Assembly (NCBI GenBank): GCA_002007425.1
Contig: MUGK01000007.1
Location: 1-38,752, forward strand
Source: Chromatiales bacterium USCg_Taylor
Lineage (GTDB): Bacteria; Pseudomonadota; Gammaproteobacteria; JACCXJ01
DNA length: 38,752 nucleotides
Direction: 5' to 3'
Below the pieces are notes generated by a model, which saw only the letters and a program-made list of their open reading frames with translations, ran no database searches and was not told the origin of the DNA. Within the stretch, counting starts at the first letter, position 1. Each line of letters begins with the position of its first letter. Made by a program: the position numbers and the translations under genes. Shown here in pieces: positions 34,050 to 35,658 of this stretch.

Positions 34050-34886
34050 GTGTTAGATGATTCTTTAAAGGATATCGATGTGGCTCAGGCCCTCCAAGAA
34101 GATGTAGGCGAGGGTGATGTCACCGCCGCTTTGATCCCGTCGGACCACCATTCGAGGGCCCATGTGCTAACACGGGATGATGCGGTTCTGTGCGGAACAC
34201 ACTGGTTTAGCGCTGTCTTTCATCGGCTCGACACGCGGATCGAGATTGCATGGCGGGCGCAAGATGGCGACGAGGTCCTGCCTAACCAAGAGATCTGCGT
34301 GCTCGCCGGCCCCACCCGCGCGTTATTGACCGGGGAGCGCACCGCCCTGAATTTCTTGCAGATGTTGTCCGGGACCGCCACCGTGACGCGCGGCTATGCC
34401 CGTACGTTGCACGGCACCCAGACCAAATTACTCGATACTAGAAAGACCATCCCGGGATTACGCGAGGCGCAGAAATACGCCGTTCGCTGCGGTGGGGGTT
34501 ACAACCACCGCCTCGGCTTGTTCGATGGGGTCCTGATTAAGGAAAACCACATTGCCGCCGTCGGCTCGATCGCCGGAGCCGTCGCTAGCGCCAAGGCGTG
34601 CTATCCGGAGATGCAGGTTGAGGTGGAAGTGCAGAATCTGGCGCAGCTTGACGAGGCGATTTCCGCCGGCGCCGACATCGTGTTACTCGATAACTTCACC
34701 GTGGATCAACTGCATGCGGCTGTCGCCCGCAATCGCGGGCGGGTTCGGATCGAGGCCTCGGGCGGATTCGATCTCGACACGCTGAGAGCGGCCGCCGAGA
34801 CCGGAGTCGATTTCATTTCCGTCGGCGCCTTGACTAAGCATGTCCAGGCGATCGATCTCTCGATGCGTTTTCTCCATGACCACTAA
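34050..34886 (+). CDS. nadC: Nicotinate-nucleotide pyrophosphorylase NadC
   Basis: Encodes a 278-aa quinolinate phosphoribosyltransferase, making nicotinate mononucleotide in de novo NAD synthesis. The N-terminal domain has ALQEDVGEGDVTAALIP. The barrel holds LNFLQMLSGTATVTRGYA, LLDTRKTIPGLREAQKYAV, HRLGLFDGVLIKENHI and SGGFDLDTLRAAAETGVDFI, all family motifs. GTG start at 34050; no strong ribosome binding site is visible. Its stop lies one base before the target duplication of the MITE that follows. Confidence 0.95.
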   Translation: MLDDSLKDIDVAQALQEDVGEGDVTAALIPSDHHSRAHVLTRDDAVLCGTHWFSAVFHRLDTRIEIAWRAQDGDEVLPNQEICVLAGPTRALLTGERTALNFLQMLSGTATVTRGYARTLHGTQTKLLDTRKTIPGLREAQKYAVRCGGGYNHRLGLFDGVLIKENHIAAVGSIAGAVASAKACYPEMQVEVEVQNLAQLDEAISAGADIVLLDNFTVDQLHAAVARNRGRVRIEASGGFDLDTLRAAAETGVDFISVGALTKHVQAIDLSMRFLHDH

Positions 34887-34891
34887 ACTAA

Positions 34892-35034
34892 GGAAGCTCT
34901 GCAAAAGTGTCGCGAGCAAGCCCAGATGCGCGAAGCCGCGGAGCGAGTTGCGAGACATATCAGGTAGATAGGCGAGCGACGAGCAAGCACGCGACAAAGC
35001 AGATGGGCTGCGCAGTAACTTTTGCAGAGCTTCC
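34892..35034. mobile_element. 143-bp MITE with IS5-type ends
   Basis: Perfect 17-bp terminal inverted repeats, GGAAGCTCTGCAAAAGT (34892-34908) and its complement (35018-35034), flank 109 bases with no transposase. CTAA is duplicated directly outside both ends (34888-34891 and 35035-35038). CTAA fits the YTAR target of the IS5 group, so the element was probably moved in trans by an IS5-type transposase. It sits between convergent nadC and the cyclohydrolase gene. Confidence 0.85.
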
Positions 35035-35658
35035 CTAAAGCTTGTTTCTTACCAGCGCATAGACCCGTTCCGTCAACGCATCGGCGCCATTCGTGATTTG
35101 CCCCAGTTCCGCCAAGCGCTCCTTGACAAAACTCGTATCCTTAATCGCGCCTGCGTTGATGTAGACGTTCAGGGCCGCGCTCCGCAGTGCGGCATAGGCG
35201 GCGAGGACCGCGACCCCCGCGTCGCTAATGACGTTGCGGTTACCCTTCTCGGCGACCCGATGGCTCAGGGCAATCGCTTCCGCGCACGCCCGGGCGCACT
35301 TGAGCGGCACCTCGGTGGCCGCGCGCAAGGCCGACTGAATCGCCTCACTGCGCGCGGTCTTTTGCGCCTCGGTCTCTTTCGGGAGGCCGTAGGCCGCCAT
35401 CACCTGATCGAACGCCTCGACATCGGCGCGCACCATGTCGGTGAGACGCTCCCGCAACTCCTCGGCTCGGCGCAGGACATCCTTCATGTCATCCTCGACG
35501 TCGAGATAATTCTGCTTACCGATGGTCAGATTGCACACCATGCTGACGAGGGCCGCGCCCATCGCCCCCATGATCGCGGCCGCGCTCCCTCCGCCCGGCG
35601 TGGATGATTTGCTCGCGAGCTCGTCTAAAAACGTCTGTATCGGTTTATCTTTAATCAT
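35035..35658 (-). CDS. fchA: Methenyl-H4F cyclohydrolase / formimino-H4F cyclodeaminase family (Fch-like)
   Basis: Encodes a 207-aa mostly helical protein of the FTCD-C family. IQTFLDELASKSSTPGGGSAAA is the folate-binding N terminus. AALVSMVCNLTIGKQNY and AEKGNRNVISDAGVAVLAAY are further hallmarks. Stand-alone members act as cyclodeaminases in histidine degradation or as methenyl-H4F cyclohydrolase (Fch) in methylotrophs. With mtdA divergently next to it and no histidine-degradation genes nearby, Fch is the better reading. Its TAG stop (35037-35035) lies inside the CTAA duplication of the MITE. Confidence 0.85.
   Translation of the reverse strand: MIKDKPIQTFLDELASKSSTPGGGSAAAIMGAMGAALVSMVCNLTIGKQNYLDVEDDMKDVLRRAEELRERLTDMVRADVEAFDQVMAAYGLPKETEAQKTARSEAIQSALRAATEVPLKCARACAEAIALSHRVAEKGNRNVISDAGVAVLAAYAALRSAALNVYINAGAIKDTSFVKERLAELGQITNGADALTERVYALVRNKL

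Follow-up and report, generated by a model that had tools for sequence, protein, structure and literature searches.

In the window (the whole stretch of 38,752 nucleotides analysed), the 3' ends of the convergent genes nadC and fchA are separated by a short element flanked on both sides by CTAA. The features of this locus are as follows:

34050..34886, plus strand: nadC, with the stop codon TAA at 34884-34886 (TIGR00078, PF01729/PF02749; sequence)
34888..34891, no strand: first copy of the target duplication, CTAA (YTAR), 4 bp (sequence; identical 4-mers at the other copies of the same genome)
34892..34908, plus strand: left terminal inverted repeat GGAAGCTCTGCAAAAGT (sequence; genome-wide end matches)
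34892..35034, no strand: MITE with type A ends and core 1, 143 bp
34951..34976, minus strand: core centre, CGAGACATATCAGGTAGATAGGCGAG, whose reverse complement fits CTCGCCTATC-N5-GATATGTCTCG (class scan; conserved fold)
35018..35034, minus strand: right terminal inverted repeat, fully complementary to the left (sequence)
35035..35038, no strand: second copy of the target duplication, CTAA (sequence; 35035-35037 are the fchA stop)
35035..35658, minus strand: fchA, methenyltetrahydrofolate cyclohydrolase, named fch in the earlier note (NF045657, PF04961)

Reading from the end of nadC to the end of fchA, the order is TAA (34884-34886), a single A (34887), CTAA, the 143-bp element and again CTAA. 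The earlier note had placed a MITE exactly between the two convergent stop codons, and its coordinates and letters proved to be correct on rereading, as did the 17-bp perfect ends (GGAAGCTCTGCAAAAGT at 34892-34908 and 35018-35034). It had also claimed that the target overlapped a stop codon and that neither gene was harmed. The second CTAA does contain the fchA stop TAG, which is the reverse complement of 35035-35037 in the minus-strand ORF 35035..35658, and the nadC TAA ends one base before the first copy. Since the stop predates the insertion and both sides retain a copy, the fchA protein is unchanged. Both products match their family models nearly from end to end (TIGR00078 covers residues 11-274 of the 278 amino acids encoded by nadC, and NF045657 residues 1-207 of the 207 of FchA); hence, the two neighbours of the MITE are whole proteins of known families.

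The BLAST search of the element against its own genome (2.96 Mb) gave 50 rows corresponding to 40 distinct places, the ten rows removed being the second strand or the second piece of an already counted copy. One further copy was located by its end, which stands at the border of a contig, and brought to 41 the full or partial members of the core family that were read; 36 of them have type A ends (like those of the copy in the window, or nearly so) and five have other ends. The 16-bp end has 71 matches in the genome with up to two mismatches, against a single one for the reversed control pattern, and the flanking 4-mers are identical in 15 of the 24 own copies having two A-type ends, where chance would give 0.7%. 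The BLAST copies, the end matches relative to the control and the identical flanking 4-mers show that the element is not a chance pattern. It is short and multi-copy, it has terminal inverted repeats and a target duplication, and its ends are like those of a resident IS; the element is therefore a non-coding MITE of the IS5 kind, and the other copies on which the mobility proposed in the earlier note depended do exist.

As for the enzyme, an IS5-type transposase had been suggested on the basis of the CTAA target. The left end of a resident IS, GGAACCTCTGCAAAAG, is found at ten contig ends, always preceded by TTAA, CTAA or TTAG, and the MITE ends match it at 15 of 16 bases. This end leads into an open frame beginning MSRQMTLGTGF (translated by eye, first codons only). 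The assembly lacks the rest of this IS, and the class of the partner was read from its relatives, a class-wide search for which gave matches in 6 of 369 genomes. The complete relatives have the left end GGAACCTCTGCAAAAG or GGAACTTCTGCAAAAG and a right end of the GGAATCTCTGAACAAG kind; one of them (L276, in G341) has CTAA on both sides and a 319-aa product, and another (L272, in G125) has TTAA flanks and a 318-aa transposase belonging to the IS5 family (NF033581, E 1.3e-105; PF05598; PF01609). The flanks of both, like those of the ten resident ends, agree with the 4-bp YTAR that we take to be the target of the IS5 group. The resident ends matching the MITE and the IS5-family transposase of L272 thus bear out the proposed class of mobilising enzyme. 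Six DDE_Tnp_1 matches in the own genome were considered as the autonomous partner; the ORFs around five of them were read, and none was accepted because no MSRQMTLGTGF start occurred among them, the comparison being of starts rather than end to end. The search of plasmids with the IS end returned no match.

In the main type A subfamily, both ends copy the left-end kind of the IS, while the ends of a minor subfamily (L023, L028 and L030; GGAAACTCTGAATAAG and variants) resemble the right-end kind. L025 (C13:24130-24225) and L027 (C4:7901-7998), both of type A and only about 100 bp long, lack nearly all of the right end, down to TCC, and still have a matching CTAA or TTAA after the element.

The empty site that the earlier note had proposed to look for in relatives was found at the level of gene order and not base by base. 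A match to nadC is present in 20 of 27 relatives, and in two of them (G009 and G012), both from other families, nadC and fchA are convergent without the element; their nadC-fchA gaps measure 173 and 69 nt and give no base-for-base alignment to the site of the element. In G001, the sole genome of the same family, a different gene follows nadC. The gap of G009 (L183, G009:C114, 1405-1577) holds a different palindromic repeat, CACGGAGACACGGAGG ... CCTCCGTGCCTCCGTGG, and it looks as if convergent nadC-fchA gaps collect repeats.

The overlap of target and stop codon is not restricted to this locus. A called stop lies inside the duplication in 19 of 41 copies (a count that mixes 36 type A and five type B elements, three of the 19 being type B) versus 28 of the 161 control YTAR sites at which no gene would be disrupted (odds ratio 4.1, p 2e-4) and 28 of all 499 YTAR sites, the genes having been called by a codon-score caller trained on the window, in which the lowest-scoring training gene scores below the highest-scoring wrong frame. 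For type A alone and at a stricter score, the duplication coincides with a called stop in 15 of 36 elements. When the nearest facing gene end is considered, 15 type A elements lie in the stop and five at 1-60 nt beyond it, the corresponding numbers for the control sites being 50 and 56 (p 0.019). For the type A IS, ten flanks could be read; none of them is stop-anchored, against 16 of 54 MITE borders (p 0.055), and two of the ten enter open frames. Since the ten IS flanks lack stop anchoring, selection fits better than pure targeting, and the removal of harmful insertions by selection may supply part of the excess at stop codons.

The same habit is displayed by a second set of MITEs of this genome. 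Their type B ends, GAG[GC]TTGTGAATAAATC, give 78 matches at two mismatches or fewer (0 for the reversed control) and are bordered by 3-bp TNA duplications, identical in 16 of 23 two-ended copies and all TNA; most borders read TGA or TCA. Among 61 elements, the duplication is a stop in 22 (in 20 with the stricter score), versus 78 of the 716 TNA sites at which no gene would be disrupted (p 1e-6). By nearest end, 20 type B elements are in the stop and 11 at 1-60 nt beyond it, against 141 and 276 control sites (p 8e-4); restricting the count to T[CG]A gives 18 and 7, against 82 and 155 (p 3e-4). The partner of type B presumably belongs to the IS1031 group, with its TNA duplication, and a 3-bp TNA duplication is indeed what these MITEs carry. 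A target duplication of three nucleotides is given for the IS1031 group in PMC2516522. Probable IS ends of two kinds, GAGGCTGTGAATCAATTGTC and GAGGCTGTGAAAAAATTGTT, are located at contig ends (L202 1697-1768, L265 2818-2901, L229 1-92 and L253 1-93; L230 1-68 and L249 1656-1727) and are candidate partners of type B; of their six flanks that were read, two are anchored at a stop.

In other genomes, elements having the same core and other ends could be compared with respect to long ORFs ending exactly at the border. With CAGGC..GTTGAAAAA ends (YTAR), nine of 19 elements had this arrangement; the figures were six of nine for GAG..GTGAATAAATC ends (TNA), four of 22 for Nitrosomonas-type ends (YTAR; median GC content of the loci 51%) and none of 16 for GGGCACCTCGAAAAACC ends, where the 4-bp duplications lack a consensus. 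The CAGGC..GTTGAAAAA and GAG..GTGAATAAATC groups differ from the GGGCACCTCGAAAAACC group (p 2e-4). Pooling all YTAR or TNA ends, 19 of 50 elements are stop-anchored against 0 of 16 for GGGCACCTCGAAAAACC ends; thus, the stop habit tracks the ends, i.e., the transposase, and not the core.

The copy number, the matching IS ends, the duplications, the stop anchoring in two MITE types of this genome and its dependence on the end type elsewhere are shown by the sequences. Very probably, the element is a non-autonomous MITE of a modular family that an IS5-type transposase, acting in trans, placed in YTAR, and its insertion duplicated the stop codon of fchA. The transposase would recognise the MITE ends in trans and insert into YTAR, many harmless instances of which, in a GC-rich genome, would be stop codons; an insertion in a stop would duplicate it and leave to each neighbouring gene its own copy, which is what would have occurred at the fchA stop. 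That the element itself moved is suggested by its sequence and that of its copies. We think that the excess at stops may reflect a stop-like target together with the purging of harmful insertions.

Other explanations for the position of the copies can be envisaged. The hairpin might be retained at gene ends for a benefit to the host, as a terminator, a block to transcription or a stabiliser of the 3' end of mRNA, the position at stops being a by-product. The fold of the element (z -6.0 versus shuffles), the covariation in its conserved arms described below and the many copies at gene 3' ends would agree with such a role. The bidirectional terminator of the earlier note was not recovered, though, as no intrinsic terminator is predicted in 34700-35250 (0 found; 0.6 in shuffles); the MITE ends hold only a CTTTTG run, with no U-tract after the hairpin. 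Moreover, stop-anchored genes show no orientation preference (19 vs 15, p 0.61), and the stop habit follows the end type instead of the core, which makes a host benefit quite improbable. The sigma-70 promoter scan at the locus found none, and the best Rfam match reached 15.9 bits versus the 55 needed. Alternatively, the transposases might choose stops by more than YTAR or TNA, for example by the flanking sequence or by the state of the DNA at translation ends. The preference for stops over matching sites 1-60 nt downstream, seen above with both types (15/5 vs 50/56 for A; 20/11 vs 141/276 for B), is in favour of an active choice; the ten IS flanks, none of them stop-anchored and two in open frames, and the lower anchoring in the AT-richer Nitrosomonas-type loci (4/22) speak against it, and it is considered rather unlikely. 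A further candidate is a palindrome of the REP/BIME type, spread by a tyrosine (RAYT) transposase. The element shares with these repeats its palindromic structure, its intergenic position and its multiple copies; REP/BIME elements are not known to make a target duplication, which is present here (15 of 24), and the terminal repeats match an IS5-type IS. Even though the termini of GTAG REPs are reported to give stop codons to flanking ORFs (PMC3733652), this last origin appears extremely unlikely.

The core of the element is also present in other genomes. Of the 369 genomes of the class, 19 contain the centre CTCGCCTATCT-N3-TGATATGTCTCG (up to two mismatches), with 0 matches for the reversed control in the whole set, and the centre CTCGCCTATC-N5-GATATGTCTCG (up to one mismatch) occurs in 11 of 398 genomes of the phylum, the class pattern thus allowing one mismatch more and having a shorter free loop. 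The scan of GTDB contigs, which selects on the centre motif, so that the conservation of that motif is better judged from the class scan, recovered at least 116 stretches, 12 of its 118 matches being too close to a contig end to read. The records with the centre, among the matches listed, are from Nitrosomonas, Halothiobacillus, Rhodocyclaceae, Accumulibacter, Pseudomonas, Magnetococcales, Geobacteraceae and others. The core elements are mostly about 140-152 bp long, with the core in central position and variable ends (GGAAACGCTGATTAATT, CAGGCTGTTGAAAAAC, GAGGGTGTGAATAAATC, GGGCACCTCGAAAAACC and others that are less frequent). Across Proteobacteria and Geobacteraceae, a single hairpin core, centred on TATC-N5-GATA, is associated with five or more types of ends. 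Conversely, the same ends may enclose other centres: in the own genome, some type B elements have core 1 (L201-L205 and L238) and others a second centre, GGAATCCTCATGTAT..ATACACT.CGGTTCC, with arms similar to those of core 1, while a third centre is found in three type A copies (L022, L207 and L208).

The centre of the core forms the TATC-N5-GATA stem, and in 29 diverse inner regions, 95.3% of the cells in 20 pairs are standard pairs. Ten pairs have changed on both sides, in 79 cells versus 22.4 in shuffled data and at most 29 with the partner slid. The invariance of the centre is partly the result of selection of the rows, since they were found via the centre; the covariation of the arms was not so selected. 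Hairpin-templated repair could also generate arm-to-arm changes; a conserved structure is favoured because the unpaired columns remain unpaired. A short peptide encoded by the core, in the frame through GCCTATCT that is open in several copies, was set aside, as third codon positions looked, by eye, as fixed as the others. No viral contig matched the core.

The phylogenetic tree of the region between the ends was constructed on 71 of 153 core matches and 112 columns, leaving out unclear ends, near-duplicates and odd lengths. Types B, H and A were rejected as single clades (AU p 1.6e-11, 6e-5 and 4e-5, respectively); type N is one group, well supported, and type C is one group, weakly supported. 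From this topology we infer that ends and cores have been exchanged, and the family looks modular, with one core placed within ends for different transposases and other centres within the same ends. It might be argued that no exchange occurred, the core family being old and the ends of each lineage having drifted alongside its own transposase; different end types are in fact partly alignable, with some letters in common (by eye), and both N and C stay together on the tree. This is doubtful in view of the rejection of A, B and H as single clades, of the occurrence in one genome of the same core under two end types with different duplication lengths, and of the two centres found under one end type. 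Besides end exchange, a more general proposal is possible, to which we give somewhat less than an even chance: the core, CTCGCC-TATC-N5-GATA-TGTCTCG with its covarying arms, may be a conserved structural module that moves between the ends of different transposases in Proteobacteria and Geobacteraceae, i.e., a shared selectable part carried by many transposases (for example a host-factor site, a folded DNA aiding transposition, or an RNA) and not a decayed IS interior; in GC-rich genomes, these elements would spread through stop codons, the duplicated target restoring the stop.

The usual description of a MITE is that of a single IS reduced in size. If the presence of a covarying core under the ends of several transposases is confirmed, MITEs would have conserved, exchangeable parts of their own, and a MITE family could outlive its transposase. 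The stop-codon rule, in turn, would be a simple and testable reason for the spread of these elements in compact GC-rich genomes without gene breakage, and it predicts their locations from the target motif alone.

Some known systems resemble the window MITE. MITEAba12, an IS5-family-related MITE, is likewise short and non-coding, with the ends of a resident IS and duplications of the length made by that IS; its duplications are of 9 bp and its ends are the most conserved part, whereas here the core is conserved, the ends vary from genome to genome and the target is duplicated as YTAR or TNA (PMC6382973). The IS5 of E. coli inserts at CTAA or CTAG, in agreement with the CTAA of the window MITE, and shares the IS5-family DDE transposase with the relatives of the partner IS, but it is autonomous, while the MITE has no gene (PMC11677980). 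The GTAG-tagged REPs are also palindromic and lie near genes, often falling on the stop of a flanking ORF; in that case, the repeat terminus supplies the stop, whereas for the MITE the stop is the target, duplicated outside the element, and REPs, unlike the MITE, depend on tyrosine transposases (PMC3733652). Finally, the Tn3-derived TIMEs are also miniature elements that form mosaics and have short conserved core stretches, but their mosaics pair elements around other DNA, while here ends and hairpin centres are combined within a nearly fixed 143-bp plan (PMC4133298). The position of the window MITE is well explained, and as a kind of element it is not unusual; what stands out more is the stop-codon habit, measured for two end types, and a structured core that looks exchangeable, neither of which was found described in the open-access literature searched. 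The nearest printed statements concern the GTAG REP termini (PMC3733652) and one IS that takes the stop of its own transposase from its target (PMC4133298).

Other observations regard single elements. The type A copy L207 (C13:15939-16093), which has the third centre, shows stops called within the duplication on both sides at the looser score. A core-1 element with long inverted arms (L161) comes from a record whose title names a Klebsiella pneumoniae isolate, a host remote from the others; the record is possibly mislabelled or contaminated. Lastly, some type B elements with the second centre have an added set of small hairpins that brings them to about 210 bp; in seven of them in the own genome (L223, L233, L235, L240, L252, L254 and L256, of about 207-212 bp), this extra module (e.g., CGTTTCGCCGGGAGCGAAACG and GCCCCGAAGGGGC) adjoins the second centre.
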